A stretch of DNA of 55,516 bases from an uncultured Spirochaetia bacterium (lineage in GTDB: Bacteria; Spirochaetota; Spirochaetia; JABEVK01): NCBI GenBank assembly GCA_937960645.1, contig CALGPJ010000008.1, positions 1-55,516 of the forward strand, written 5' to 3'. Positions 1,846 to 25,106 of this stretch are shown one piece after another. The position numbers and the translations under genes are program-made. Under the pieces are notes generated by a model, which saw nothing but the letters and a program-made list of their open reading frames with translations, was not told where the DNA came from and made no database searches. The first letter of the stretch is position 1. Every line of letters begins with the position of its first letter.

Positions 1846-2067
1846 ATGGCTCGTGTCATCGTCAAATCGAAAGAGGATTCTTACCCTGGTAAAGCGATGT
1901 CCCTGACCAAGGACGGGGCCATTCTCCATCTGGAGGAACTCTCCCCGAAATTGATCCCTGGGGAAATGACCCTGGTTGTCGCAGAGGAGGCAACCTACCA
2001 GGGAAAGATCATCTTTCGTGAGGTGCACGCCGATTCGTGTCGGTTGCACGTTCGTTTTCTAAACTAA
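1846..2067 (+). CDS. Small conserved-looking protein, possibly PilZ-like
   Basis: A 73-residue acidic-basic mixed protein without membrane segments. The ATG at 1846 is chosen because AAGGAGG (1834-1840) sits five bases upstream; an in-frame GTG at 1840 lies inside that site. The stretch SLTKDGAIL followed by a predicted all-beta tail resembles the N-x-S-x-x-G-A strand of PilZ domains, but the RxxxR half of the c-di-GMP site is missing, so this is only a resemblance. Its stop codon overlaps the recG stop as CTAA. Confidence 0.6.
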   Translation: MARVIVKSKEDSYPGKAMSLTKDGAILHLEELSPKLIPGEMTLVVAEEATYQGKIIFREVHADSCRLHVRFLN

Positions 2068-4118
2068 AAGGAATCCTCCGCGGAGGATTTGAACAATGAA
2101 CCGTTCCGCAGGTGGCCAATCCACGGCCCCTGTGGATCATTTTTCAAAAGATCGAGGATTTCATCCCGGATGGTGAGCATGAGGTCGGCGTCTTTGTGCC
2201 AATTGGCCATCCGGAGACGCGCATAACCGGATTGGCGCATGCCGAGGAACTCTCCGGGACCGCGAAGATCGAGGTCGGCCTCGGCCAACTCGAAGCCGTT
2301 TGACGTTTCTCTGATCATTTTTAATCTTTGTTTGGCTTCTTCGGTTAGGTCGGGGGCAAATACCAGGAAACAAAATCCCGGAAGGCTTCCTCGGCCAACG
2401 CGGCCGCGGAGCTGATGCAGGGTGGAGAGGCCGTAAAGCTCGGCGTGGTAAATGACCATGCAGGTTGCATTGGGAACATCAACACCGACCTCGACGACAC
2501 TGGTAGCACAAAGGATTTTGGTTGATCCTGATTTGAAGGCGTCCATCGCTGCCGTTTTATCCTGATCCTTCATTCGACCGTGCACTATTCCGACCTCGAA
2601 ATTTGGAAAAGCGGATTTCAGCGTTTCGAAAACGGAATAAAGGTCGATGATGCTGCGTTTTTCGGATTCCTCGATCAGGGGTACGACGACATAGGCCTGC
2701 TGTCCGGATTTGAGCTTCTCCGCCAAATAGTCCCATACCCTTTTGATGTTTCCCAGGCTGACCAGGTAGGTGGTGATGGGATGGCGTCCCGAGGGGAGCT
2801 CGGGTAAGGTGGTCACATCGAGATCGCCAAAGACGGTCAGAGCCAAACTTCTCGGTATGGGTGTGGCACTCATCATCAGCAGGTGCTTGGCGGAACCGGA
2901 TTTGAGGAGAGCCTCTCGTTGGCGTACCCCAAAACGATGCTGTTCATCCACGATAACATATGACAGGTTTCGCCAAATGATTTCTTTGGAAAGCAGGGAA
3001 TGGGTGCCAACGACGAGATTTAGCTCCCCGGAAGCGATTTGTTTCAAAATCGATACCCGAGCATCGGCAGGGGTGGAGGAGGTCAGGAGGGCTGTTTTGA
3101 GTTGCAAGGGTTCCAGGATTTTTGCAAGATTTTTGAAATGCTGTTGCGCCAGAAGCTCGGTCGGAGCCATGAAGGCCACCTGCTCTCCCGCTTCCAGGAC
3201 GGGTATGGCCGAGAGCACCGCAACCAGGGTTTTTCCGGCACCCACGTCGCCTTGCAGCAGTCGCGCCATGCAACGTCCCGAGTCCAAATCCTCGAGGATT
3301 TCCTGTATGGCGTTTTTCTGTCCCTGGGTCAGTTGAAAGGGGATCGAATGCACGGCTTTTTCCAACAGTGTTCTGGGATAGGCTGGGTGTTTGACCTCGA
3401 TGTTTAGCCTTAGGTGCCGTTCCAGCTGAATGTTTCCTATTAAAAACCAGAGCTCACGAAAAGCCAGGCTGCGCCGGACTTTTTCAATTTCCTCCAGGTT
3501 CCTGGGCGTATGGATTTTTTGAAGAGAATCGAGCCAGGAAGCCAGGCCATATTTGTTTCTCACGTTGTCGGGTATTTCTTCGGTTACATCTTGAAGGTGT
3601 TGCAAAGCCTGGGCCATGGCTTTTCGAATTGTTGACTGTTTAAGACCTGCAGTCGCGGGATAGATGGGGAGAATGCTACCAAAACCCGGTGGTCCTGGCT
3701 GTCTTTCATATACCGGTGTGATTTCGAATTGAGAGATCTGAATTTCCTGGTATTGCAACTGAGGCGTGCCAAAGAGGTGAAACCTGGATCCCGGGGGGTA
3801 CTTGTCTTTCAGGTAGTCTCTGTTGAAACAGAGCAAGCCGCCTTCCTGGCCTAGGTGGTCACTAAAGCGAATTTTCAGAACAGCTCGGCGACTGCCAAAA
3901 TAACCGTGAGAGATAACCCGCCCTGTCGTATACACGGGTTTTTTCTCTCGCAGAGCTTCCTCCAGGCCAACAAGCCTGGTACGATCTTCGTAGGCTCTGG
4001 GCAGCAGGAGCAGAAGATCGAGGCAGGAAAAGACGTCAATTTTTGAAAAAAGTACGCCGATACCAGGCCCGACTCCCTTCAGACGTTGAACCGATAACGA
4101 GTAGTCGGCGAGATACAT
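2064..4118 (-). CDS. recG: ATP-dependent DNA helicase RecG
   Basis: A 684-residue protein of normal RecG length. It has the N-terminal wedge/OB region (about 1-250), then Walker A GDVGAGKT (290-297), DEQH (391-394) with the RecG-type continuation RFGVRQREAL, SATPIPR (417-423), and a C-terminal helicase domain ending in the family tail. RecG reverses and remodels stalled replication forks and branched DNA. The ATG at 4118 matches the usual N-terminus; an upstream in-frame ATG at 4142 would overlap yggT. It is the last gene of the long minus-strand operon and follows yggT with only two bases between stop and start. Confidence 0.95.
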   Translation of the reverse strand: MYLADYSLSVQRLKGVGPGIGVLFSKIDVFSCLDLLLLLPRAYEDRTRLVGLEEALREKKPVYTTGRVISHGYFGSRRAVLKIRFSDHLGQEGGLLCFNRDYLKDKYPPGSRFHLFGTPQLQYQEIQISQFEITPVYERQPGPPGFGSILPIYPATAGLKQSTIRKAMAQALQHLQDVTEEIPDNVRNKYGLASWLDSLQKIHTPRNLEEIEKVRRSLAFRELWFLIGNIQLERHLRLNIEVKHPAYPRTLLEKAVHSIPFQLTQGQKNAIQEILEDLDSGRCMARLLQGDVGAGKTLVAVLSAIPVLEAGEQVAFMAPTELLAQQHFKNLAKILEPLQLKTALLTSSTPADARVSILKQIASGELNLVVGTHSLLSKEIIWRNLSYVIVDEQHRFGVRQREALLKSGSAKHLLMMSATPIPRSLALTVFGDLDVTTLPELPSGRHPITTYLVSLGNIKRVWDYLAEKLKSGQQAYVVVPLIEESEKRSIIDLYSVFETLKSAFPNFEVGIVHGRMKDQDKTAAMDAFKSGSTKILCATSVVEVGVDVPNATCMVIYHAELYGLSTLHQLRGRVGRGSLPGFCFLVFAPDLTEEAKQRLKMIRETSNGFELAEADLDLRGPGEFLGMRQSGYARLRMANWHKDADLMLTIRDEILDLLKNDPQGPWIGHLRNGSLFKSSAEDSF

Positions 4119-4120
4119 TG

Positions 4121-4687
4121 TCAGAGACTCACGATCAACCATCGCAGGAGCCATTCCCCTGCGATGTAAATCAGAAGCAGTAAAAAAATGAATAAGATCA
4201 GTCCGGTTCGGTAGGTCAAAAAACCTCTTCGAAGGATGGCCCCCAGTTTTGTGACCGGCGGCATCAAAATGAGGTCGAGCGCATGCCAAATTGGAAAACG
4301 TGCCAGGGCGGCAAAGTAAAACCCTAACAGTCTTACCATACTCAAGATGATGAACAGTCCCAGGAGAAAGCTGATAAAGCTCCAAATAAGGGAAACCAAA
4401 AAGACCACAAGCTCGATGGGCCCGGGAAATCCCGAGCGATAACTCAAATGGAATAAAACGAAATTGGCGATTTGGAGGACGGCGACCGCGGCGATAGGCG
4501 TCAGGTCCAGGTGTTGGGTGCGTAGAAACTTCCAACCGCGAAACAGCGAGAGGTAGGGGTCCACGACTTTGCTCAAAAAGGCGATGCCAGGATGAAGAAT
4601 CCCTGACCATCCGAGAATGATGCGGATAGCGATCAACAGCATGTACATCTGAATCAACGCGGACAAAAAGGTAAAAACAAAATTCAC
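4121..4687 (-). CDS. YggT-family membrane protein
   Basis: A 188-residue integral membrane protein with two copies of the YGGT unit, each made of a hydrophobic helix pair: the first has IRIILGW and VVDPYLSLFR, the second LILMPPVTKLGAILRR. The start is GTG at 4687, supported by AGGAGG seven bases upstream. YggT proteins are linked to cell division, osmotic tolerance and membrane-protein assembly in other bacteria, but the biochemical role is not settled. It lies between dnaE and recG, in the same operon. Confidence 0.85.
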   Translation of the reverse strand: MNFVFTFLSALIQMYMLLIAIRIILGWSGILHPGIAFLSKVVDPYLSLFRGWKFLRTQHLDLTPIAAVAVLQIANFVLFHLSYRSGFPGPIELVVFLVSLIWSFISFLLGLFIILSMVRLLGFYFAALARFPIWHALDLILMPPVTKLGAILRRGFLTYRTGLILFIFLLLLIYIAGEWLLRWLIVSL

Positions 4688-4705
4688 TTTGAACCTCCTG
4701 AAACC

Positions 4706-7700
4706 TCAGTGGAGTGTAGGATTGAATTTCCAAAATCCATGGAACCAACTTTGATCTTTCAGTTTGTCTTTGAATTTTGGGTCCAAGGTAACGAAAAGAG
4801 ATGTTTTGAAAAACCATGGTTTATGGCTCGTGGCCATCGGTAGAATGCGCAGATACAGGGGCGTCTTGCCTCGATGATTTTGGAAGAAGTCATAGATGGA
4901 GGCAATCTCACTTTTGAGATAATCCTTGGGTTTGATTTCGATACACAGTGCCATATGTGTTTCGGTTAACTCCTGGGAATTTGCCAGTGGCTCCTGCACT
5001 TCCAATTCGTCCACGGTAAACTGGGCCTGGTCGTCGTAAAAATCCACACGGCCGCGCAAACCGACGACCTTGCCCTCGATAAAGTTCTCCCGGATGGCTT
5101 CATAGACCCGGGGAAAGACACGCAGGTCGATACTTCCCAAAAAATCTTTTAGCACACCGACCGCCATCCGTTCGCCACTTTTGGTGTTGAATATCCGAAT
5201 ATTCGAGAGTTCTCCCAGGATTTGATAGGTGGTTTTGGGTTTGGCGTGTTTGACCTTACCGAGGTTGAGGTTGGAGTATTGTTCCCATCGCTCGCGATAA
5301 TCGTCTAGAGGATGGCCCGAAAAGTAAAAGCCAAGGAGTTTTTCTTCCAGATCGAGTTTCGTTTTTGTGTCGATTTCCGGTAGCTCCGTCCAGGGTACGG
5401 GTGGAAGGTCGGAGCCGGGTTCCCCGAAGAGCGTTGTTTGCTTCGATTCGATTTCTTCCTTGATTTTGTTGACTCGGATTAAAACCTGAGGGAGAAAATG
5501 TTTGAGGGTGGCGCGGTTGTGGCCCAAGCCGTCGAGAGCGCCGGCATCGATCAGTGTTGCAATTTGTTTTTCAGCCAGCAGTCTGGAATTGGTTCGTAAA
5601 AGCAGATCTTCCAGGTCTTTGAACGGGCCGCCCATAGTTCGTGCTCGCAGGATTTCGTCTACGGGTCCATCACCCAGGTTCTTGATGGCGAGAAGGCCGT
5701 AGATGATTTTTCCGTCTTTGACCGAAAAATATTTTTCAGAATGATTGACGTTCGGTGGTACGATGTCAATGTTCATTTTCCGAGCTTCGGCGATGTATTC
5801 GGCGAGCTTTTCCGGTTTGTCGATTTCGTTGGTGAGGTTGGCGGCTAAAAACTCTGCCGGATAATTCGCTTTCAAATAAGCGGTTTTATAAGCCAAAAAG
5901 GCATAGGCTGCGGCGTGGGATTTGTTGAATCCGTATAAAGCAAACTTTTTCAGGAGATCGAAGACCTCGCTGGCCTTTTCGGAAGACACCCCATGTTGTT
6001 TTTTGAATCCTTCGATAAACATGGGACGTTGTTTGTCCATGACCTCTATCTCTTTTTTTCCCATGGCCCGGCGCAACAGATCGGCAGCTCCCAGGGAATA
6101 ACCGGCCAAAATCTGGGCGGCCTGCATCACTTGTTCCTGATACACGATAATGCCATAAGTCTCTTTTAAAATGGGCTGAAGGCTCGGATGCGGATATTCG
6201 ATTCTGCCGCTCATCTTGCGTTCGATAAACGTAGGAATGTTGTCCATGGGTCCCGGGCGGTAAAGCGCATTGAGCGCGGTGAGGTCTTCCAAACTTTGCG
6301 GTTTGGCCTTTTTGAGAACTTTTCTCATCCCGGCGCTCTCGAATTGAAAGATCATGGAACTTTTTGCCTCGCCCAGCATCTTGTAGGTGGTTGCATCGTC
6401 GAAGGGGATTTCTTCCTCGGATAGTTGAATCCCGCGTTTTCTGAGTAAATGGAGGGTGTTCTTGATCAAGGTGAGTGTCTTCAAACCCAAAAAATCCATC
6501 TTGACGAGGCCGCAGTCCTCCAAATACTTCATGGAATATTGCGTCAGCGTGGTGTTGGTCTTGGGATCTCGATAGAGCGGGACATAGTCGATAATTTGTG
6601 TTTTTCCGATCACGAGTCCCGCGGCGTGGGTGCTGGCGTGTCGCGGCAAACCCTCCAGGAACGCGGCTGTATCAAAGAGCTCCTTGTATATACCTCCCTT
6701 TTCGTAGTATTGCTTCAACTCCGGGACTATTTGCACCATCTTTTTCAGGGAGGCGATTTCCTTGGGATTGTCCGGATCGGGTAGGCGGTTATCGATGAAT
6801 TTTGTGATTTGATTTCTTTCGTTGAAACTCAACCCCAACACTCTCCCCACATCTTTAACCACTGCTTTGGGCTGTAGGGTACCAAAGGAAATGATCTGGG
6901 CCACGTTGTCCTGACCGTACTTTCGGGTGACGTAATCGATAACCTCCTGCCGCCGTTCGAAGCAAAAATCCACGTCAAAGTCCGGCATGCTGACACGCTC
7001 GGGATTGAGAAAGCGTTCGAAGAGCAGTTTATATCGTATGGGATCGATATCGGTGATTCGAAGCGAGTAAGCCACGAGACTACCAGCACCCGAACCGCGG
7101 CCGGGTCCTACAGGGATGTCGTGATCTTTTGCCCAGTTGATGAAGTCGGCGACAATCAGAAAGTAACCCACGAAGTCCATCAAAATGATCACGGTAAGCT
7201 CATAATCCAGCCGATCCTGAAGTTCACGGGTTACCGTCGTGTACCTTTTCGTTAAACCCATGTGGCTGAGGTATACGAAATACTGGGTGACGAGGTTATC
7301 GAGTCTCTGAAAGAAAAAGCTTCTGACGTTTTCGGCTACCTCATGCGGGTCCTTGTTTTTCGTATCCTTGCTGAGCTTAGCCAGGGCCTCGTCGGTAAAT
7401 CGAGTCTCCAGAACACTGACCAGTCCTTTGATTTTTTCCCTGGCTTGTTCCTGTTGTTCGAGATCGAAGTTCTGGGGTACCTGGAACTCGGGTAAGAGCG
7501 GACCAGGGAACCGGAGATCGACCTGGCAGGCCTCGGCGATTTTTAAGGTATTCTCTACAGCCTCGGGAATATCGGCGAATAGAGATGACATCTCCTCGGC
7601 CGAGCGAAAATAAAATTCGCCGAACCCCTGTGGCGCTCTATCGAGATCGTTCTTTGTTTTTCTTTCGGCAATACACCGCATGGTGTCGTGGTATTCTGCA

Positions 7701-8308
7701 TGCTCAGGCAGCGCATAATAGATTCTGTTGGTTGCCACGAGCGGTAAATTCAGTTTCCGACTAAGGTCGAGTAATTTCGGCCGATTGTTTTGTTCCTCGG
7801 ATATTCCGTGGTCGGTAATTTCGAGGTAGAGGTTTTTACCGAAAACATCGTAGAGCCGAACCAGAAGGTCCTCGGCCGACTTGTCCCGGTTATTGCTGAG
7901 AAGGTGATGGATTTCGGTATCCAGTCCGCCTGTGATTAGAAAAAGTCCTTCGTGATGCCTGAGAAGAAAATCGAGGGTAACATGAGGAGAAAGGCCGTCC
8001 TCGTGAAAAAAGGACTGGGAACTGAGACGCTTGAGGTTTTCCCACCCTTGATTGTTTTGGGCGATGACGATCAGCGGACGCGGTATTTCGTAGATTTTTA
8101 CCGAGAGTGTCAGCCCAAGAAGGGGCTTGATTCCCGCCTTTTTTGCGTCTTTGTAAAAGTTCACGGCGGCAAAAAGGCCGTTGGTATCGGTCAGGGCCAC
8201 TGCAGGCATGTTGTTTTTCCTGGCAGCCTGGATCAACTGCGAAATGGAAAGGCAGGATTCGAGGAGAGAATAAACGGAATGGCAACAGAGATGGACAAAC
8301 GACGACAT
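4706..8308 (-). CDS. dnaE: DNA polymerase III alpha subunit DnaE
   Basis: A 1200-residue replicative polymerase. The order is PHP domain (starting HLCCHS at 6-11), then palm with GPGRGSGAGS (401-410) and the catalytic PDFDVDF (442-448), fingers, tandem HhH, beta-clamp-binding region and an OB fold near residues 1020-1100. The PHP metal ligands look partly replaced, as in E. coli, suggesting no proofreading there. The ATG at 8308 is preferred over 8326 because a GGGAGG lies just upstream and the N-terminus then matches the family. A roughly 55-residue charged insertion lies near 285-345. It follows the xdh-like gene by 11 bases. Confidence 0.96.
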   Translation of the reverse strand: MSSFVHLCCHSVYSLLESCLSISQLIQAARKNNMPAVALTDTNGLFAAVNFYKDAKKAGIKPLLGLTLSVKIYEIPRPLIVIAQNNQGWENLKRLSSQSFFHEDGLSPHVTLDFLLRHHEGLFLITGGLDTEIHHLLSNNRDKSAEDLLVRLYDVFGKNLYLEITDHGISEEQNNRPKLLDLSRKLNLPLVATNRIYYALPEHAEYHDTMRCIAERKTKNDLDRAPQGFGEFYFRSAEEMSSLFADIPEAVENTLKIAEACQVDLRFPGPLLPEFQVPQNFDLEQQEQAREKIKGLVSVLETRFTDEALAKLSKDTKNKDPHEVAENVRSFFFQRLDNLVTQYFVYLSHMGLTKRYTTVTRELQDRLDYELTVIILMDFVGYFLIVADFINWAKDHDIPVGPGRGSGAGSLVAYSLRITDIDPIRYKLLFERFLNPERVSMPDFDVDFCFERRQEVIDYVTRKYGQDNVAQIISFGTLQPKAVVKDVGRVLGLSFNERNQITKFIDNRLPDPDNPKEIASLKKMVQIVPELKQYYEKGGIYKELFDTAAFLEGLPRHASTHAAGLVIGKTQIIDYVPLYRDPKTNTTLTQYSMKYLEDCGLVKMDFLGLKTLTLIKNTLHLLRKRGIQLSEEEIPFDDATTYKMLGEAKSSMIFQFESAGMRKVLKKAKPQSLEDLTALNALYRPGPMDNIPTFIERKMSGRIEYPHPSLQPILKETYGIIVYQEQVMQAAQILAGYSLGAADLLRRAMGKKEIEVMDKQRPMFIEGFKKQHGVSSEKASEVFDLLKKFALYGFNKSHAAAYAFLAYKTAYLKANYPAEFLAANLTNEIDKPEKLAEYIAEARKMNIDIVPPNVNHSEKYFSVKDGKIIYGLLAIKNLGDGPVDEILRARTMGGPFKDLEDLLLRTNSRLLAEKQIATLIDAGALDGLGHNRATLKHFLPQVLIRVNKIKEEIESKQTTLFGEPGSDLPPVPWTELPEIDTKTKLDLEEKLLGFYFSGHPLDDYRERWEQYSNLNLGKVKHAKPKTTYQILGELSNIRIFNTKSGERMAVGVLKDFLGSIDLRVFPRVYEAIRENFIEGKVVGLRGRVDFYDDQAQFTVDELEVQEPLANSQELTETHMALCIEIKPKDYLKSEIASIYDFFQNHRGKTPLYLRILPMATSHKPWFFKTSLFVTLDPKFKDKLKDQSWFHGFWKFNPTLH

Positions 8309-8319
8309 CACCACCCTCC

Positions 8320-9195
8320 CTACCAAGGATTATAATCAGTCATGTTGATCCTTCTAAAATAGTCTAGGAGGATCAAAAGAATCTTAGCGACCTGGCCAGA
8401 GGCTTGTTCGGAATACGCACTGTAACGTGATTTGATATTACTCAAGACCGATGAGATATCCCGTTTGGAAAAAGGCAGGCGTTTGCCGAGGAGATTTTCC
8501 TCGATCGATCGGTGGGTCACTGTCGGTAAACCGGGCAGCTGGATGGCGAGGCGTAGGTCCTCGAGAATGTTTTGGCTGACTCTCGCTGTTAAAACGAGCC
8601 GAGAGGGGTTTTGAGGATACTGGGCATGGAAATCGGAATAGAAAAAGGCCTCATTGAAGGAAGTTTCCGGTAATTTAACACGCGTCAGCACTTCATTGGG
8701 GTTGATCGGTAGGGCGTAGGAATCGAGAAGTCGTGCCGAATCGAGCCAACGGGTGCCGGATGGGGATTTTAATTCATATTGGGCTCCCAGAACGCCCAGT
8801 ACCATCGACAAGTCTCCTGCCCAGGGCTTCAAGCATAGGTTCCCTCCGATTGTCGCCTGAAAGAAAATAGGGTATTGGAGCAGCTTTTTAAGAGCGACAT
8901 TCAAAAGCAAGGGCAAGCGTTTGGGAGAGATCTGGCTGATCTGGGCCAGAGAGACGACCGAGCCGATGTCCAGGCCGTAATCTGTGGCACGCACTTTTTT
9001 GAGTTCGGGGATATCGAGCAGGTTGATAATGTCTTCGTTATCGATTTCGAGTTTATTCAAGCAATTTGATGATGGGTAACCATGAAAAGAGGTGCCGCCT
9101 GCCACCAGGATGGCTCGGGATCTAAAGCGTAGCGCATTGAAGACTTGATGAAGTTCTTTGGGGAAGAAGATATTATGCGGACTGTTTTTAGCCAT
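8320..9195 (-). CDS. FAD-binding subunit, molybdenum-hydroxylase type (XdhB/CoxM-like)
   Basis: A 291-residue protein with the FAD-binding fold of xanthine dehydrogenase and CO dehydrogenase medium subunits. The FAD loops AGGTS (32-36) and ATIGGN (114-119) are kept, as is INLLDIPELKKVRATDYGLD, the linker strand typical of the family; the C-terminal CO-dehydrogenase flavoprotein domain is recognisable but diverged. So the flavin site looks intact while its two partner subunits are degenerate. It overlaps the upstream small-subunit gene by eight bases and precedes dnaE by 11 bases. A role in electron transfer is inference; no substrate can be named. Confidence 0.75.
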   Translation of the reverse strand: MAKNSPHNIFFPKELHQVFNALRFRSRAILVAGGTSFHGYPSSNCLNKLEIDNEDIINLLDIPELKKVRATDYGLDIGSVVSLAQISQISPKRLPLLLNVALKKLLQYPIFFQATIGGNLCLKPWAGDLSMVLGVLGAQYELKSPSGTRWLDSARLLDSYALPINPNEVLTRVKLPETSFNEAFFYSDFHAQYPQNPSRLVLTARVSQNILEDLRLAIQLPGLPTVTHRSIEENLLGKRLPFSKRDISSVLSNIKSRYSAYSEQASGQVAKILLILLDYFRRINMTDYNPW

Positions 9196-9634
9196 GCCTT
9201 TTGTCCTGATGGTTCGAGATAAAAAATTCGTAGATTTCTTTATCTTGTTGACAAAAACAGGGAATCCATTTCAGGACTTGCCTGATCCTCAACTCTCTTG
9301 AATTTTGAAATATTTCCGATGCATGATAGGCGAGGAAAAAACGTTGTTCGAAACAAAGGGGACACACTCGTTGGTGGTGTGACAAAAAGGAATGAATAAT
9401 TTCTTGATAGTTGGGTGATTTGAAAAAGCCTCTGGAAGTTTCGACTTTTTTTCCTTGTAGCCGATATATGGGCAGATAGTCGGCGGCGTAAAGGTTATTG
9501 TCCAAAAAAATAAATTCCTTCATGTTCGAGAAATAAACCCTGGGATGTGCCAGGCGCAAATAATGGGAAAACTTCATCAGAGGATCGGACTCGATTCGGG
9601 TCTCCACATTGTCCAGGTAAAACTTAAAGTTCAT
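9188..9634 (-). CDS. Degenerate [2Fe-2S] small subunit (XdhC/CoxS-like), plant-type cluster lost
   Basis: A 148-residue protein that aligns in layout with small subunits of molybdenum hydroxylases: N-terminal ferredoxin-like strands, the YRLQGKKVET strand pair, then a helical domain. The helical domain keeps C91-x2-C94 and C126-x-C128, the pattern that holds the cluster nearest the molybdenum site. Residues 1-90 contain no cysteine at all, so the four ligands of the plant-ferredoxin-type cluster are gone. A clear AGGAGG six bases before the ATG and the tight overlap with both neighbours suggest it is still translated. The family call is from pattern reading and needs a profile search. Confidence 0.6.
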   Translation of the reverse strand: MNFKFYLDNVETRIESDPLMKFSHYLRLAHPRVYFSNMKEFIFLDNNLYAADYLPIYRLQGKKVETSRGFFKSPNYQEIIHSFLSHHQRVCPLCFEQRFFLAYHASEIFQNSRELRIRQVLKWIPCFCQQDKEIYEFFISNHQDKRHG

Positions 9635-11525
9635 GTCCGTCCTCCTGGATTAAACCCGCCTGCCATTTGGGGTTGGCCATTTTGCAGGCTTGAATGAGAG
9701 CGGCGGGTAAGGCAGTCCAAAGCAGGCTCTGTACGCTCTTTTTTTCTTTCTTGTGGAGGTTTTCCGGCAACAATCGGATAACAACATTTTCTAAATCCAA
9801 ATCCAAGGATAACCATGTCAGAATATGCCAAAGATTCCGATGGAGGATTTTCAAGACCTCCGACGGGCTTTCAAAAAGGACTCCCTCCGTCGCAACACAA
9901 AGCTGTAAAAGAGAAAATTTTTGAAAAGCGGTATCCCATTCGACTCGAACGAAAATCAAATAAGGAAAAGAAGAAAGGTAGGGCTGTCCTTGTAATTTGA
10001 CACTATCCCACAGTTTGGATTTGGGGCGTCGGAAGATGGCATTTTGAAATATGCGTCCTCGTGATGTCCTCTTTTTTTTGAGAACGCTTTTGTAAGCGTG
10101 TTGAATCAGTCTCGGCAAAATTTCGAACGATCTCCCTATCAAACAAGGGCCGGGGTTGGAAGCGCTGAAATCGAACCATTGCTCGGTTTGTAAACGAACC
10201 TCCCCCAACGCAGGCGCTGATTGTTTGATGGTATCCAGGATTTCGGCGCTCAAGGGCAGGGGGATGTCAATTTTTAAGGTTTTATCTCTGGGAAGCAGGG
10301 CCACGCGGATCGAACAGGAAGTGAGGGCGGTTTCTACAAATCCGGAATTATGATAGCCCGCCGCCATACCCGAACCATAATTATTCCTCAGGGTCGATTT
10401 AGTCGCGATTTTGTCGTTGGCCCACCACCGCCGCCAGTAAATTTCCGAATTGATTCGTTCTGCCAGGGCAGCAAAAGTATTTGGCAGTGTGAGCGACGGG
10501 TCGTAGTCAGCAGGTGCAATTTTTTTTGCAATTGCCAGTCGGATTCGATTGACGATGAGGGTTGCAGCCGATTCGGCCCAGGCAAAGGGTGGCAGTCGGG
10601 GTACCGAGTGAGTTTCCAAACACCATGCCTCCAACCAAAAGTCGCTGTCCGGCAGCATCTGGACAAAGGTATATAAAAACCGGGCTGTCAATTCCGACAC
10701 GAAGGGCCCCTTGAATCCGTTGTCCATTCTGGCATGCATATTGAAGGTCTTGATTTCACCCCGGGGATTGTGCTCCAACGATATGTCAACTTGAAGGCTG
10801 GGGGCGCGGCAAGGCCAGGCCTGGAGAAAATCTCGATCAACCAAAAAACGGACAGGTGCTCGTGTGTGCAAGGCCAATATGCCTGCATAAAGACTTCCCA
10901 CAATCAAAAATGGGGACATGAGGGTGGAAGGCGCCTGATTCTCCGGAACTTGAAAAAAGATGTTTTCATCGGGGATACCCAAAACTCGGGATGCGTTCTC
11001 GGCAAACAGGTATGGCCAGGGACCATAAACCTGGACATAGAGTTTGTCCTGGTGATACCAGGCCCAGATTTCGTTGGGATACAGGTTAAGAATGTCCCGG
11101 CCTTCCAAAGAAACCGAATAGGTCATGTTGAGTAAGTCTTCCGTGGCGGTGGTTTGAGATTTTTTCGAGTAGGTTTGGCGGTACAACACCTCGGAGCTTT
11201 GATTCCATTGTTTCACAGGATAAGGAGCGATAACGGGAGAAACCGATTCTTGTGTATGACACAGCTCCTCGGGATCATAGGAATAGGCGAGAGCGATACC
11301 CTGGTTGGGCCATTGCAAAAGTTGATCTGCCAATACGGGTAAGCGTGATTGGTAGATTTGAAGCCAACGGTTGGCCGGCAAATCCTCGGGAAAAAGGATC
11401 TCGATGTCACGATTGTTCTGATTGATTCTGTAACCACGGATGACACCGGCTTGCTGAGGAGCGATGAGCAATTTGCCCCAGATGACTTTGTTTTCCGTAG
11501 AAAGGACGGATGACCAGTCAACCAT
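9624..11525 (-). CDS. Degenerate molybdopterin-subunit-like protein (XdhA/CoxL-like)
   Basis: A 633-residue protein, shorter than the usual 750-800. The N-terminal hammerhead region is recognisable (LPVLADQLLQWPNQGIALAY), followed by a stretch like the first molybdopterin-binding domain (IWAWYHQDKLYVQVYGPWPY, then ASRVLGIPDENIFFQVP). Where the family has the glycine-rich GGGFGGK loop this protein has NQAPSTLMSPF; the GQG loop is not seen, and the C-terminal GxGEP with the catalytic glutamate is replaced by SLLWTALPAALIQAC. A normal molybdenum active site therefore looks impossible. It overlaps degT by eight bases and the small subunit by 11. No premature stop is present, arguing against a pseudogene. 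Confidence 0.6.
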   Translation of the reverse strand: MVDWSSVLSTENKVIWGKLLIAPQQAGVIRGYRINQNNRDIEILFPEDLPANRWLQIYQSRLPVLADQLLQWPNQGIALAYSYDPEELCHTQESVSPVIAPYPVKQWNQSSEVLYRQTYSKKSQTTATEDLLNMTYSVSLEGRDILNLYPNEIWAWYHQDKLYVQVYGPWPYLFAENASRVLGIPDENIFFQVPENQAPSTLMSPFLIVGSLYAGILALHTRAPVRFLVDRDFLQAWPCRAPSLQVDISLEHNPRGEIKTFNMHARMDNGFKGPFVSELTARFLYTFVQMLPDSDFWLEAWCLETHSVPRLPPFAWAESAATLIVNRIRLAIAKKIAPADYDPSLTLPNTFAALAERINSEIYWRRWWANDKIATKSTLRNNYGSGMAAGYHNSGFVETALTSCSIRVALLPRDKTLKIDIPLPLSAEILDTIKQSAPALGEVRLQTEQWFDFSASNPGPCLIGRSFEILPRLIQHAYKSVLKKKRTSRGRIFQNAIFRRPKSKLWDSVKLQGQPYLSSFPYLIFVRVEWDTAFQKFSLLQLCVATEGVLFESPSEVLKILHRNLWHILTWLSLDLDLENVVIRLLPENLHKKEKKSVQSLLWTALPAALIQACKMANPKWQAGLIQEDGHEL

Positions 11526-12678
11526 AGATTTCTCTATGAACTTTATGTAGCCGGTCCACGACTTTTTCCGCTTCCGGCAAACCGATCCCAGGACCTATGG
11601 GCAAGGATAATTCACGCTGCCAGAGCGATTCCGCTACGGGAAATTGTTCGGGTTTCAAATTATAGCGAGTGCGCCAAAAAGTGTGGCGATGAAGGGGAAT
11701 ATAGTGAACCGAGGTGCCCACACCCAAATCGTACAGTTTTTGAATGATTCGGTCACGATCCTCGGCTCTGGGACAGAGGGCGGGAAAAAGATGCCAGGAG
11801 CAATCACCCGCATGATCGGGGAAGATCCATCCTGGAAAAGATTCGCGATGGCTTTGGTAAAACCGAGCGACTTCCTGACGCTGTTGTTTCAGGGTATGAG
11901 CCTTGCGTAGCTGTGCCCTGCCGATGGCCGCCTGAATGTCCGTCAAATTGTACTTGTAGCCAGCATCGACGATGTCGTAAAACCAGGCGGGTTGGGTGCT
12001 TTGGAATCTTTGAAAGGCATCACGGTCAATGCCATGAAGCCTCAACGTTTTTATCCGCTGAGCCACCTGGGGATTGCGCGTTACGACCATACCGCCCTCA
12101 CCGGTGGTGATGGTTTTATTAGCGTAGAAGCTGTATACCCCTATGTCGCCGAGGTCTCCGAGGTAACCATGATCGGTTGTCACCGGAAAAGCGTGGGCAC
12201 AGTCCTCGATGACTTTGACACCGCGGTCTCTGGCAGAACTCCAGAAGTCCGGATAACATGCTTGTCCACCGAAATGGACGGGAATGATGGCCCGAAGGAA
12301 GTTTGGCTTGTGAAGGATTAAATCGTCGAGGATTGAGACATCCATCATAAAGGTGTCAGGGGCGCAATCGATCAAAACCGGTTCGGCTCCCAGGTAGAGA
12401 ATGACCTCGGCAGTGGCGGTAAACGTATAGGTGGGCACGGCGACACGATCACCTTTTTGAATGTTCATTCCGAGTAAGGCTAGATGCAGACCGGCCGTAG
12501 CGCTGCTGACGGTAATCGCATAAGGCATTTGAACGAAGGCGGCAAATTCGTCTTCGAAGGCTCGGCACTCCGATCCGGTGGTAAGCCAACCGTTACGCAG
12601 AACTCGCAGGACGGCCTCCTCCTCTTCGGGCCCAAATCTGGGACGTGCATACGGGATGAAATCAGTATTCTGGCTCAT
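11518..12678 (-). CDS. DegT/DnrJ/EryC1/StrS-family sugar aminotransferase
   Basis: A 386-residue PLP enzyme that transfers an amino group to a 4-keto (or 3-keto) nucleotide sugar. The PLP lysine is K188 in YANKTITTGEGG and D159 in VIEDCAHA holds the pyridine nitrogen. The gene overlaps the capD-like dehydratase by 17 bases, so the pair probably acts in sequence: UDP-sugar 4,6-dehydration, then amination, as PglF and PglE do in UDP-bacillosamine synthesis. The acetyltransferase and glycosyltransferases that would complete such a pathway are not in the window. Confidence 0.85.
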   Translation of the reverse strand: MSQNTDFIPYARPRFGPEEEEAVLRVLRNGWLTTGSECRAFEDEFAAFVQMPYAITVSSATAGLHLALLGMNIQKGDRVAVPTYTFTATAEVILYLGAEPVLIDCAPDTFMMDVSILDDLILHKPNFLRAIIPVHFGGQACYPDFWSSARDRGVKVIEDCAHAFPVTTDHGYLGDLGDIGVYSFYANKTITTGEGGMVVTRNPQVAQRIKTLRLHGIDRDAFQRFQSTQPAWFYDIVDAGYKYNLTDIQAAIGRAQLRKAHTLKQQRQEVARFYQSHRESFPGWIFPDHAGDCSWHLFPALCPRAEDRDRIIQKLYDLGVGTSVHYIPLHRHTFWRTRYNLKPEQFPVAESLWQRELSLPIGPGIGLPEAEKVVDRLHKVHREIYG

Positions 12679-14122
12679 TTTTGTTCTCGACTGTAGGTAT
12701 ATAGAGCCTCAATGCCTGCCGCAAAATGGCGCGGTTTCGGTACATCTTTGCGTTGAACGAGTCGTAAAAACAAATAGCCCTCACCGTTTCGAGGAACTCT
12801 TCAAGGCCAACGGGGGTTCTCCGGCGTACCACACGGTTGATTCGCGGGAATTCGGTAGGGACAACGTCCTCCCAATCCTCCCATAGCTTTTCATGAAGCT
12901 TTTCTCCATCGCGAAGGCCGATGTATTCGATGGGAATGTCGCGTTCTGGGGTCTTGTTGTAAAATTGGATCATCTGTTTTGCCAATTCAAGGATCGAAAT
13001 CGGTTCTCCCATGTCCAGGAGGTAGAGCTGACCGTCTTGTCCCATCCCACCTGTTTGCAGAACCAGGCTTGCCGCTTCGGGTATAGTCATGAAAAACCGT
13101 TTGGCATCGGGATGAGTAATGGTGATGGGACCGCCCGACAGAATTTGCTGTTTGAAGAGTGGCATAATGGAGCCGCGGCTCCCGAGCACGTTGCCAAATC
13201 GAACGACCATGAAAAGAGTTTCCGATTCATGGCGATTCGCGCTCAGTACCAATTCCTCCGCGATTTTTTTTGTAGCGCCATAAACCGAGGTCGGGGAAAC
13301 CGCCTTGTCGGTGGATATCAGCACGAACCGCTGGACCTTGTTTTTTTGAGCGGCCTCGACGAGGTGGGCGGTCGTCCATACGTTGTTGATGACGCATTCG
13401 ACAGGATTCTGCTCCATGAGGGGGACGTGTTTGTGTGCGGCAGTGTGAAAAACAACATGGGCCTTGAGCCTTTGCATCAGGAAAAAAATCCAGTCCCGAT
13501 CGCGAAGATCTCCGATGATAGGAACGATCATCGCTTTCTCTCCGACGCCCTCCTTTTGTAACAGGCGCAGTTCTTTATCAATGTTGTAGATGCTGTTTTC
13601 ACCGTGCCCCAGGAGGTAGAGCCTTTCCGCTCCCCCCGAGAGCAGTTGCCGAGCGAGCTCGCTTCCGATGGAACCGCCGGCACCCGTAATCAAAACGCGC
13701 TTGCCCCGGAGATATGCGAGGCTTTGCTTCAGATTGATACGAACGGGGTTTCTTCCCAAAAGGTCTTGTGGGTCCAGTTCACGGGTTAAAACGAGGTGCG
13801 CCTCGCCATCGATGATCTGATTTAGGCTGGGAAGGATTCGAATGGTAAGTCCCGGGTTTTGTTTGAGAGCCTGGACGATATCCTGGAGTTGCCCCTTGGT
13901 TGCCGAAGGAATGGCAATGACCGCAAGATCGGCCTCTACCCAATGAGCTGTAGAATCGATGGGTCCCAGAACATCGATGCCTTCCGCTAGTGTGCCAATT
14001 TTTCGGGGATCGTCGTCCAGAAAGGCAACCACCCTCCCCTTATTCGGTTTTTGTGCATATTCTCTGGCGAGGGCTCGGCCGGCCATACCGGCGCCGACGA
14101 TGATGACGCGGGGCACCTTCAT
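12662..14122 (-). CDS. CapD/FlaA1-type nucleotide-sugar 4,6-dehydratase, no membrane domain
   Basis: A 486-residue protein. Residues 1-130 form a Rossmann domain (VIIVGAGMAGRALA), followed by a second, catalytic Rossmann domain with the ITGAGGSIGSELARQL dinucleotide loop and an SDR-type active site, STDKAV then SVYGATKK. Long relatives such as PglF and WbpM carry four N-terminal transmembrane helices; here the protein begins directly at the cytoplasmic Rossmann domain, so it should be soluble. The likely reaction is UDP-GlcNAc to UDP-4-keto-6-deoxy-GlcNAc. Its ATG overlaps the stop of the NusG paralogue (ATGA). Confidence 0.85.
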   Translation of the reverse strand: MKVPRVIIVGAGMAGRALAREYAQKPNKGRVVAFLDDDPRKIGTLAEGIDVLGPIDSTAHWVEADLAVIAIPSATKGQLQDIVQALKQNPGLTIRILPSLNQIIDGEAHLVLTRELDPQDLLGRNPVRINLKQSLAYLRGKRVLITGAGGSIGSELARQLLSGGAERLYLLGHGENSIYNIDKELRLLQKEGVGEKAMIVPIIGDLRDRDWIFFLMQRLKAHVVFHTAAHKHVPLMEQNPVECVINNVWTTAHLVEAAQKNKVQRFVLISTDKAVSPTSVYGATKKIAEELVLSANRHESETLFMVVRFGNVLGSRGSIMPLFKQQILSGGPITITHPDAKRFFMTIPEAASLVLQTGGMGQDGQLYLLDMGEPISILELAKQMIQFYNKTPERDIPIEYIGLRDGEKLHEKLWEDWEDVVPTEFPRINRVVRRRTPVGLEEFLETVRAICFYDSFNAKMYRNRAILRQALRLYIPTVENKNEPEY

Positions 14123-14640
14123 GATCGTAGACTCTCTATCAATTCAAAAGCTAGATCGATTTGGAAATCGTTCCCGTTGAATTCGATACAGATGCGCGCC
14201 CTTTGTTTGCGCCGATCGACCTTGATGATTTTTCCTTCCAAACCCATGAGGGGGCCGTCGACTACCTTTATTTTCTGAGATTCTTCGAAGGTGACAAGGC
14301 TGGGACGGATAACCTCTCCGAATTGCAAGAACCTCCTTAGCGTTTCGACATCACGGGGACTCAGGGGGACAGGGAAATCTTGCATTTTGATAAACCATAT
14401 CGTTGGGTAAAAACTTTTAATCTCCTTGTAAAGTGTGGGGCTGAGATCCGTAGTTTCGAGAAAAATGTAGCCGGGGAACAGGGGACAGAGTTCACGAACA
14501 ACCTTGCCGCTTTTCCTGATGAATAATTCCCTGCGGGGAAGAAAAAGTCTCGCTTCGAATCTTTCGAGTTTAGGTCCGATGGTCACAAGGGCCTTTTCCT
14601 CGTTTCGGGGCCTGGACCCGAGGGCAAAATAATTCTGCAT
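14119..14640 (-). CDS. NusG paralogue (RfaH/LoaP/UpxY-type antiterminator)
   Basis: A 173-residue protein with an NGN domain starting MQNYFALGSRP and a C-terminal KOW domain (VKVVDGPLMGLEGKIIKVD). Specialised NusG paralogues bind RNA polymerase and keep it elongating through long surface-polysaccharide or secondary-metabolite operons. Its place as first gene before capD- and degT-like genes fits that use better than housekeeping NusG, which normally sits with secE and rplK. If so, its target may be its own 12-kb operon, including dnaE and recG. The promoter prediction puts transcription start almost at the ATG. Confidence 0.75.
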   Translation of the reverse strand: MQNYFALGSRPRNEEKALVTIGPKLERFEARLFLPRRELFIRKSGKVVRELCPLFPGYIFLETTDLSPTLYKEIKSFYPTIWFIKMQDFPVPLSPRDVETLRRFLQFGEVIRPSLVTFEESQKIKVVDGPLMGLEGKIIKVDRRKQRARICIEFNGNDFQIDLAFELIESLRS

Positions 14641-21834: not shown

Positions 21835-23412
21835 TCAGTAATGATGCCCCAATCCAATGAACAACTCGCGGACATTGCCGCTCAAGATATTGTAATCATT
21901 TTCCTGCAGTTTTCTAAGATTGACACCGTAACTCAAACGCATGAAATAACTACGGGCGGCGAGCGGAAAACCGATGAGCTCGGCACCGGCTGTCCAAACC
22001 CATCTTTCCTCATTCCATTCAAAAGATGATACAGGAAAAATGTATCCCAAATCGGTGAACAGGTTCAGGTGGAGTTCGAAATTGAAGAAGCGCATCCAGC
22101 TCCAGCCCCACCATTCCTGGAAGTTATTCACTTTGAGGATTTTCAAAGTAAGATCGGCGTTGAAAAATGTCCCAAAATGGCCTTGAATGCTGGTGTCCAG
22201 GACTCCTCGCACGGCTTCCATCTTGGCCGCATCCGAGGCTTGTTGATTGAAGGTACCACTGAGCCTCGCGGTTAACATCAAGAAGTCCCAAACGACCTGA
22301 TAAACGGACAATGATGTGCCGACTCGGTTGTCATGGCGTTCCTGGCCAAAATTGTATTCATACGTGTAATTGATGTTGAACGTTTGTCCCTGCCGCAAAT
22401 TATCGATCCAATCCCAGCGACCAGCACCCAGGTTTTGCACGGCACCGACATAGAGTCCGGAGCGTGAGAAACTTATGGGCTTTTCAAAAAGGTATTGTTG
22501 GAAGGCAAAGAGGCCGGTACTGAAAGACACATTCCATTCCCGGGGGAGATTGCGAAGCGGTACGGAGAGATTGACGTCCAAACGAGAGGTAGTGTAATAA
22601 CCGTCGGGATCGGAATAATCGGTGAGTACCTTCATCGATTGCGAGGGGGTAATCGTGAGACGATGTTCGGAAAAGGTAATTGTGTTCGATAAATAAGTGT
22701 AGAAAGTCAGTTCCGTTTTTTTACTGTCAGTGACACTGACTTTTTGGCCCAAACCGTATTGGTAGGATTGCGCATTGATCATAAAGGGGTAGGAGAAATT
22801 CCAACCTGCGCTTAAATCGATGAGGTTGCCGGTTTTATAAAATCCCGAGGCCTCGAGACCCAAAAACCAGTTGTCCCCGCCGACATCCAATGGGAAGCGC
22901 ACATCCATGGTGCCTCCCAGGGAGTTGTCACCACCAGTAGATCGGCGGAATTCCAGGTTGATTCGGAGTTGTTCCATGGTACCAAGAAAATTGTTGTCAC
23001 GGATGCGAAGACTCAGATTGAGTCCTTCATTGTCAGTATACTTGGGAATTGGCAAGGCCAGGATGTTCCAGGTATCCCTGGCCTGAACCGCAATGACGAC
23101 GAAACCCCCGCCATCTTCCTCGACTATCCAGGAATAGGTTAGAGAGGTTTCCTGAAAAATCCTGTTGTTTGCCAGGAGGCGTTTTTTATCTTCGATGTAC
23201 GCATCTAAATCGGCCTGTGTATTGAATAACCTCTCATAATCCCAGTCCAAATAACGTTCCAAAGCTTTGGGGTCGGTCCAGCCGTTGATTTCGTATTTTA
23301 CGGAGTCGATCTTGAAGAAAACAGGTTTGTTGTTGGGTATGGAGGTGCCGGGAACCATGTCCTGGGCGTAGGCCGGCGCCACAAGCAGAAGGAATACGAG
23401 GTAAAACCTCAT
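21835..23412 (-). CDS. BamA/Omp85-like outer-membrane barrel protein
   Basis: A 525-residue exported protein. A signal peptide (MRFYLVFLLLVAPAYA, then QDM) is followed by a short POTRA-like segment (about 35-115, ending VIAVQARDTWNILALP) and then a long run of alternating amphipathic strands with the family-like turn LSLRIRDNNFLGTMEQL and a C-terminal aromatic (LGHHY). It is much shorter than BamA, which has five POTRA domains, and is closer in design to single-POTRA Omp85 relatives. The ATG overlaps the preceding gene's stop (ATGA). Confidence 0.75.
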   Translation of the reverse strand: MRFYLVFLLLVAPAYAQDMVPGTSIPNNKPVFFKIDSVKYEINGWTDPKALERYLDWDYERLFNTQADLDAYIEDKKRLLANNRIFQETSLTYSWIVEEDGGGFVVIAVQARDTWNILALPIPKYTDNEGLNLSLRIRDNNFLGTMEQLRINLEFRRSTGGDNSLGGTMDVRFPLDVGGDNWFLGLEASGFYKTGNLIDLSAGWNFSYPFMINAQSYQYGLGQKVSVTDSKKTELTFYTYLSNTITFSEHRLTITPSQSMKVLTDYSDPDGYYTTSRLDVNLSVPLRNLPREWNVSFSTGLFAFQQYLFEKPISFSRSGLYVGAVQNLGAGRWDWIDNLRQGQTFNINYTYEYNFGQERHDNRVGTSLSVYQVVWDFLMLTARLSGTFNQQASDAAKMEAVRGVLDTSIQGHFGTFFNADLTLKILKVNNFQEWWGWSWMRFFNFELHLNLFTDLGYIFPVSSFEWNEERWVWTAGAELIGFPLAARSYFMRLSYGVNLRKLQENDYNILSGNVRELFIGLGHHY

Positions 23413-25106
23413 AATTCAAAACCCACCCGCAGAGACACATAATGACGAACGCCGTTGTTATCGGCCAGGGGCACCCCCCGGTTTTGGAATGAGGCGCTTC
23501 CCAAAGTTCCCGAAAAAGGGTCTCCCCGACGGTTCAATCCATATTCGAACATGTACCCACCAGCGAAAGTTACGAAACCCAGCGGCGAGGCCAGCAGGAG
23601 TTGATAATCGAAACCGATCTGCCAAAGTGTTTCGATGACGCTTTGGGTCAGGAATCGGTTGGAGTTGAATTTGTGATTTCCTCCGGGCGCAACATAGCCA
23701 TTGTCGTTGAAGCTACCGTCGGTTGTGCCGATGAACTCGTCCGACGAAGCTAAATAACCGTCATCGGAGGCGTTTCCGTGGCGCAGGTATCGCCCCGTGA
23801 TGCTAAAGTTGAGCAGTTGATTAGGTACAATCCGGAATCGCAGCTCCCATCGATCGCTGTTGGGCTCGAGGTTGACCAGTCCCTGCCCGGAGTGGGTGTA
23901 ATTCTTATAGTTGATCAGCAATTGGTTTGAGGGACCTCCGGTCACGAATTCCCGGACATGGGTAAACGTATAAGGGGTCACGAGCCCGTAGCGGAGTTCC
24001 AATCCCTGAAAGGCCCCCCATTCGGGATACCATGCGATACCTGCCTGCGCTGCAATTTTGGTCTTCCCGTCGAATTTCAACGAGAAGATTCTCAGGAAAC
24101 TGAGATCATCGGCGTGAAATTCCCCCATGAAGTTGAAGCCTAAAGGCAACCTCAATTGGAAATTGGCTCCTACGAGGATGTTGTCGACCATGCCGTTGTA
24201 AATACTCCCATAAAGCAAGGACATGACGGGAACGAGGTAGGCAGGTTCTAAGCGCTGTCCGAAGACGATGTTCTCATAGAGTCCAATTTCGAGGTGTTGA
24301 TCAAAGAAAAAAAATTGAAAACTTTGACCGGCAAGGTATTTGTTTGGAAAAAACTCCTGACCATTCGTGATCACGGTACTTTTGGTGTCCTTGGTAGCAT
24401 TGAGGATGAGAAGGTACTTGGTGTAGTTCAGTCCCTCGGTGCGCCAGGTGAAGGAAAAGGAGGGGGCAGCTGGGGCTTGGGGAGAAAAGACCATACCTTC
24501 GATGAAGGGGCCGAAGCCGTGCCTTGTGACACCGACCTGAGCGTAAAGATTTTCATCCCCAAAAGAAACATTTCCTCTCATGCTCAAAGAAAGAAGGTAG
24601 GTTCTTCCAAAAACTTCGATGGAGCTGTCATCGAGAAGGAAATCGTAAAGCCGCCGCTGACCAAGCGGAAAGGTAGTGTTGGCGGCCCAATCGACGGCCA
24701 CTGCTCCGGCATGTCCATTGACACCGACCCCGGGAGCGATCAGTTGGTTTAAGGTAAGATAACCGGAACTGGTTCCGTCGTAATCATGGTTGGGGAAACC
24801 TACCGCAAAAAGGCTCGAGTGGGTGATGGTGAAACCGGGAGCGAGAGGGGCCGCAGTGTCCCCGATAGTCATCAAGTACATTTGTGCCCTTTGAACATCC
24901 CTGGACGAACCTTTTTGTATCACTTCTTCCAGGTATTTTTTGACGAGGATGAGCGGGTAGGGGCGCAGGGCTGGCAGGGGGGCTAAAATACCGCGAAGGG
25001 ACCAATTTCTCAAATCGCTGTATACAGGATCGAGTGGCTGCGAGAGATCCATGCCCCAAGCAAGCCCGGCCGTGACAAGAAAGAGGAAAATTGAATTTCG
25101 ATGCAT
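23409..25106 (-). CDS. Outer-membrane beta-barrel protein, possibly Wzi-like
   Basis: A 565-residue exported protein with signal peptide (MHRNSIFLFLVTAGLAWG, then MDL). After a helical stretch of about 80 residues it becomes continuous beta strands typical of an 18-strand outer-membrane barrel, ending in SLRVGFEL. The helical start and the RHGFGPFIEGMVFSPQAP segment recall capsule-assembly protein Wzi, which would fit the phosphohexomutase in the same operon, but that match is weak. It is the promoter-proximal gene of a four-gene unit. Confidence 0.6.
   Translation of the reverse strand: MHRNSIFLFLVTAGLAWGMDLSQPLDPVYSDLRNWSLRGILAPLPALRPYPLILVKKYLEEVIQKGSSRDVQRAQMYLMTIGDTAAPLAPGFTITHSSLFAVGFPNHDYDGTSSGYLTLNQLIAPGVGVNGHAGAVAVDWAANTTFPLGQRRLYDFLLDDSSIEVFGRTYLLSLSMRGNVSFGDENLYAQVGVTRHGFGPFIEGMVFSPQAPAAPSFSFTWRTEGLNYTKYLLILNATKDTKSTVITNGQEFFPNKYLAGQSFQFFFFDQHLEIGLYENIVFGQRLEPAYLVPVMSLLYGSIYNGMVDNILVGANFQLRLPLGFNFMGEFHADDLSFLRIFSLKFDGKTKIAAQAGIAWYPEWGAFQGLELRYGLVTPYTFTHVREFVTGGPSNQLLINYKNYTHSGQGLVNLEPNSDRWELRFRIVPNQLLNFSITGRYLRHGNASDDGYLASSDEFIGTTDGSFNDNGYVAPGGNHKFNSNRFLTQSVIETLWQIGFDYQLLLASPLGFVTFAGGYMFEYGLNRRGDPFSGTLGSASFQNRGVPLADNNGVRHYVSLRVGFEL

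Follow-up and report, generated by a model that had tools for sequence, protein, structure and literature searches.

A class-wide trimer of molybdenum-hydroxylase architecture lacking molybdenum-cofactor loops in the Spirochaetia

The heterotrimeric enzymes of the xanthine oxidase family include xanthine dehydrogenase (XDH), CO dehydrogenase (CODH), quinoline 2-oxidoreductase, nicotinate dehydrogenase and glyceraldehyde oxidoreductase. In xanthine oxidase, the plant-type [2Fe-2S] cluster sits between the other [2Fe-2S] cluster and FAD. Three genes of the same three-subunit architecture, with products homologous to those of the family over most of each chain, are present in the DNA analysed here, a stretch of 55,516 nucleotides from an uncultured Spirochaetia bacterium (hereafter the window). 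The window trimer resembles the family in the predicted fold of the large and small subunits and in the retained FAD loops. It differs from the family in that the loops for the molybdenum cofactor (Moco), the catalytic GxGE and the plant-type cluster are missing, the host has no Moco biosynthesis and the gene context is another one.

The locus and its homology

The three genes lie on the minus strand between the DegT gene and DnaE. The homologue of the large (Moco-type) subunit is encoded at 9624-11525 (633 aa), that of the small (two-[2Fe-2S]-type) subunit at 9188-9634 (148 aa), and that of the FAD-binding subunit (PF00941) at 8320-9195 (291 aa). The three intact, overlapping frames of the preliminary description are borne out by the ORF coordinates (8320-11525). 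Ribosome-binding signals had been assigned to all three genes, but a strong Shine-Dalgarno sequence (AGGAGG) precedes the small gene only, and the signals of the large and FAD genes are weak. All the neighbouring genes are also on the minus strand. Upstream are a DegT/DnrJ/EryC1/StrS sugar aminotransferase (11518-12678) and a CapD-type nucleotide-sugar 4,6-dehydratase (Polysacc_synt_2; 12662-14122), both conserved neighbours. The operon is headed by a LoaP-type NusG-paralogue antiterminator (14119-14640) in a conserved position, which matches NF033641 with 127.8 bits (cut-off 125). The conserved downstream neighbours are DNA polymerase III alpha (DnaE; 4706-8326) and the RecG helicase (2064-4817). 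The RecG ORF is 917 aa as listed and its Pfam wedge domain starts from residue 246; the start is probably over-extended upstream, so that it overlaps a YGGT gene. This gene encodes a YGGT-family membrane protein (about 190 codons, 4121-4687, minus strand) and is kept between dnaE and recG in relatives. Elsewhere in the window, two adjacent ORFs of 525 and 565 aa (21835-23412 and 23409-25106, minus strand) have no Pfam match at 1e-8. They are flanked by a phosphomannomutase-like gene and a sigma-54 response regulator.

As single queries, the large and small subunits of the window are almost invisible to sequence searches. The FAD subunit alone matches PF00941 with an E value of 7e-24, and the large subunit alone reaches MoCoBD_1 at 0.0013, under the curated cut-off. 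When genome contigs were scanned with single large subunits as the query, no match was found. Single-sequence searches with the large and small subunits could thus have been taken to show no relation, a point settled by the profiles of relatives. The large-subunit profile, composed of the window protein and 18 relatives, detected mouse AOX3 at 2e-63, D. gigas MOP at 3e-62 and XDH also at about 1e-62. The small-subunit profile detected the FeS subunit of nicotinate dehydrogenase (4e-37), and the FAD-subunit profile detected 4zoh_B, from glyceraldehyde oxidoreductase (2.5e-31). Relatives taken singly match MoCoBD_1 in 17 of 19 large subunits and Fer2_2 in 16 of 20 small subunits. On this sequence evidence, the homology of the three proteins to the large, small and FAD subunits of molybdenum hydroxylases is beyond chance. 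The preliminary description had recognized the subunit layout of xanthine dehydrogenase and CO dehydrogenase and had proposed profile searches; these found molybdenum hydroxylases for all three proteins, and the absence of any relation is contradicted.

The fold of the large and small subunits is predicted to be intact. The AlphaFold2 models have pTM values of 0.86 (large) and 0.80 (small). The predicted large subunit is similar to xanthine dehydrogenase/oxidase and MOP in the PDB with TMq of 0.75-0.81, and the predicted small subunit to the small subunits of CODH and glyceraldehyde oxidoreductase with TMq of 0.67-0.80.

Cofactor sites of the trimer

According to the motif and alignment check, GGGFGGK (more generally GGxFGGK), FRGFG, GQG and GxGEP were not found in the window large subunit, and EKKSVQSL is located at the GxGE(P/L) position of the catalytic Glu. 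The reported absence of GGGFGGK, GQG and the catalytic GxGEP is thereby confirmed. The protein had also been called about 130 residues short. It is indeed shortened, but by about 75-120 aa, as the canonical paralogues of the same class have 707-755 aa. None of the 39 operon-type large subunits has GGxFGGK or FRGFG, 38 of the 39 also lack GQG, and an alignment-free pattern search agrees with these losses. The canonical paralogues, encoded in the same class in other gene contexts, keep GGxFGGK, FRGFG and GQG in 22 of 22 cases. In a quick maximum-likelihood tree, the operon-type and canonical sets are split by one branch with a support of 100; the long branches leave the internal order unsure. 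The motif counts and the two-sided tree indicate that the loss of the Moco loops is common to the whole family and not peculiar to the window genome. An apparent intermediate was observed at L091:6402-8732 (plus strand, genome G058), where GQG and GKGIGEL are kept, and GGxFGGK and FRGFG are gone. L091 and L085 are the nearest to the canonical enzymes in the tree, and MoaC and MoeA are absent from G058.

The FAD loops were correctly described as remaining. In the window FAD subunit, AGGT is located at residue 32 and ATIGGN at residue 114. The small subunit had been described as having lost its plant-type cluster cysteines, which is correct, but the ligands of the second [2Fe-2S] cluster were overlooked: all four of them are intact, as Cys91, Cys94, Cys126 and Cys128. 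All eight cluster cysteines are found in 33 of 44 small subunits. The 33 include the small subunit of L126, which was detected in a shifted frame. Loss of the plant-type cluster was observed in the window, its congener, L032, L081 (a genome of 1.14 Mb), L082 and L090, which represent at least five taxonomic families. L081 retains the second-cluster cysteines as the window does; in L082 and L090, the second cluster is lost as well. Most members of the family retain the FAD loops. The first loop is erased in L086 (L086:5675-6502, minus strand, genome G042) and L087 (L087:5038-5916, minus strand, genome G074), where the eight cysteines are present, the reverse of the situation in the window. As judged from these ligands, no redox cofactor site is universal, whereas the three proteins are always present.

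The best explanation, which we regard as probable on balance, is that the genes encode a heterotrimer built like a molybdenum hydroxylase, whose molybdenum cofactor is gone for good and which has acquired a new function. The three proteins would assemble as a heterotrimer. The ancestral molybdenum-free form would have been a module of FAD and two [2Fe-2S] clusters, as most present members appear to be, and the large subunit would have turned into a structural or binding partner. Window-like lineages would later have lost the cluster beside FAD. This plant-type cluster is the FAD-proximal one, and without it electrons should no longer be able to pass between FAD and the large subunit. The window trimer would most likely be a scaffold that binds flavin, has no more than one [2Fe-2S] site left and acts via assembly or ligand binding. 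Its role would be structural, regulatory or redox-sensing, and not hydroxylation. For the window species, we rank the scaffold (or flavin-binding) reading above the redox one, because the FAD-proximal cluster is lost here and in several other genomes. Against this explanation, most relatives have retained the FAD loops together with the two Fe-S sites, which argues for redox as the main role of the family and for a pure scaffold as a derived exception.

A redox role is taken further if the trimer is a molybdenum-free flavo-iron-sulfur oxidoreductase. In such an enzyme, FAD would exchange electrons with NAD(P)H, and one or two [2Fe-2S] clusters would link it to a new substrate or partner, located within the large subunit or at its surface. 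This agrees with the frequency of eight-cysteine small subunits and of FAD subunits with both loops, and with purifying selection on all three genes. However, the chain should be broken in the window, the congener and the 1.14 Mb genome, where the FAD-proximal cluster is gone. The lack of both clusters in L082 and L090, and of the first FAD loop in L086 and L087, leaves no cofactor site universal. We retain this oxidoreductase as a tentative alternative of rather low probability.

Gene order, selection and molybdenum cofactor genes

The typical gene order, LoaP-CapD-DegT-large-small-FAD-DnaE-RecG, recurs across the class of the host, often with the YGGT-family gene between DnaE and RecG. The three trimer genes are together in the same order at 19 of the first 20 loci and at nearly all further loci of the same class. 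Of 148 sampled genomes, 81 have CapD at a distance of no more than about 5 kb from the large gene. The trimer and the CapD-DegT order are also present in the single-contig genome of 1,139,633 bases (L081, the 1.14 Mb genome mentioned above). No relative was found in the taxonomic family f19, which has genomes of 1.0-1.8 Mb. Outside the class, five loci with hits in the phylum were checked; all encode canonical enzymes, and such hits were rejected as members. Gene order in related genomes had been proposed as a check of the locus, and the same order is found across the class. The operon context with nucleotide-sugar and DNA replication genes, reported earlier as unfamiliar, is present as described, but it is conserved class-wide and not unique to the window genome. 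The LoaP-type antiterminator holds the operon-head position throughout the class, and the gene string often runs on into dnaE and recG. Processive antitermination may reach these essential replication genes.

The conserved order invites a reading in which the trimer performs a step of amino-sugar (nucleotide-sugar) synthesis with CapD and DegT, for example the oxidation or reduction of a keto-sugar, or serves as a scaffold for both enzymes. The overlapping genes in one operon, and the order CapD-DegT-large-small-FAD that is found class-wide including the 1.14 Mb genome, are in line with this. The trimer is nevertheless separable from these neighbours. In the genomes G014, G057 and G067, it is located away from CapD/DegT, and only distant CapD homologues are present; G042 has the trimer and no CapD match at 1e-60. 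A link to the CapD/DegT pathway is plausible and would not be obligatory, and we consider a dedicated amino-sugar step to be unlikely.

The dN/dS values of the large, small and FAD genes are 0.06, 0.06 and 0.07 for the pair G049-G029, 0.21, 0.15 and 0.16 for G013-G038, and 0.06, 0.03 and 0.06 for G036-G011. In these three close pairs, the range of 0.03-0.21 is similar to that of the neighbouring DegT where measured. The values apply to the pairs of relatives, as the window has a single congener and the comparison with it is saturated. Between these two genomes, the trimer proteins are 27-30% identical, in comparison with 76% for CapD and 57% for DnaE. Because of this difference, the constraint on the trimer is weak and comparatively loose in the genus of the window, and slow decay is possible there, which speaks against the best explanation. 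Residues specific to the family were also identified. Glu141 and Pro241 of the FAD subunit are present in 42 of 42 sequences and Trp170 of the large subunit in 36 of 39, and the canonical paralogues are without them. The statement that selection maintains the set agrees with the unbroken frames of the relatives and their low dN/dS; frameshifts and relaxed selection were not found in these relatives. The description of a catalytically blank but maintained trimer, acting as a flavin/[2Fe-2S] module, a scaffold or a sensor, is supported by the homology, the motif loss and the dN/dS values.

These data bear on whether the trimer is a decaying relic, a former molybdenum hydroxylase heading for loss and held transiently by its operon with the essential dnaE. 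The trimer diverges very fast in the genus of the window, and cofactor ligands have been lost step by step in several lineages, as would be expected of a relic. Yet the genes are intact in dozens of genomes across class-wide divergence, and they persist in genomes without an adjacent dnaE as well as in the reduced 1.14 Mb genome. Low dN/dS in the close pairs and the gain of family-specific residues also make decay disfavoured, and we judge it very improbable.

In the window genome (99.3% complete), no MoaC, MoeA, MoaE or MoaA C-terminal domain was detected in searches with working positive controls, which were matched in 11 of 14 genomes. The sole match of the large-subunit profile in this genome is the gene at 9624-11525. 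Among the 43 trimer genomes, MoaC and MoeA are both missing in 27, of which 26 are at least 95% complete, and both are present in 16. The Moco loops are gone irrespective of whether the host genome makes Moco. An ordinary molybdenum hydroxylase is excluded in the window species. A molybdenum enzyme that still works through unusual Moco-binding residues would draw on the 16 genomes with MoaC and MoeA and on the GxGEL retained near the C-terminus in several relatives, but it is hardly credible in a genome without MoaA, MoaC, MoaE and MoeA and in a family whose loops are lost even where Moco is made. Low dN/dS, new invariant residues, the predicted intact fold and the absence of Moco genes instead point to an ancient, functional, molybdenum-free hydroxylase-like complex.

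Comparison with known systems

Matches of the three proteins to library families are only to those of the xanthine dehydrogenase type, and all are far under the curated cut-offs. Naming the proteins after these families would thus be misleading, as a molybdenum metabolism would then be attributed wrongly to such spirochaetes. The chances seem about even that the trimer defines a class-wide family of molybdenum-free pseudo-hydroxylases with a new and probably important function, which survives even the loss of FAD or Fe-S ligands and extends to the 1.14 Mb genome. The family amounts to a natural experiment: a multi-cofactor enzyme appears to have lost its active site and then its wires, and is still kept. 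Lineages differ in the subset of cofactor sites that survives. Most genes retained in a genome of 1.14 Mb are likely to matter, so that the function of the trimer becomes a well-defined question, testable in cultivable relatives.

No description of a molybdenum-free trimer was found in a search of literature mostly from non-subscription journals, and as far as found, no role of the xanthine oxidase fold outside molybdenum chemistry has been described earlier. NuoG of respiratory complex I is a subunit of a molybdoenzyme family that has lost Moco and survives in a redox complex. It belongs to the DMSO-reductase/formate dehydrogenase family and not to the xanthine oxidase family, and its fold and role are different. 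The CODH of Hydrogenophaga pseudoflava without the Mo-pyranopterin moiety (PDB 1ffu, according to the entry title) indicates that the assembly of such a trimer does not require the complete molybdenum cofactor. That structure is a biochemical apo-form of an active enzyme, whereas the loss in the spirochaete trimer is evolved and inherited. The architecture is known; its inherited loss of molybdenum with the whole trimer retained has, as far as found, no earlier description.
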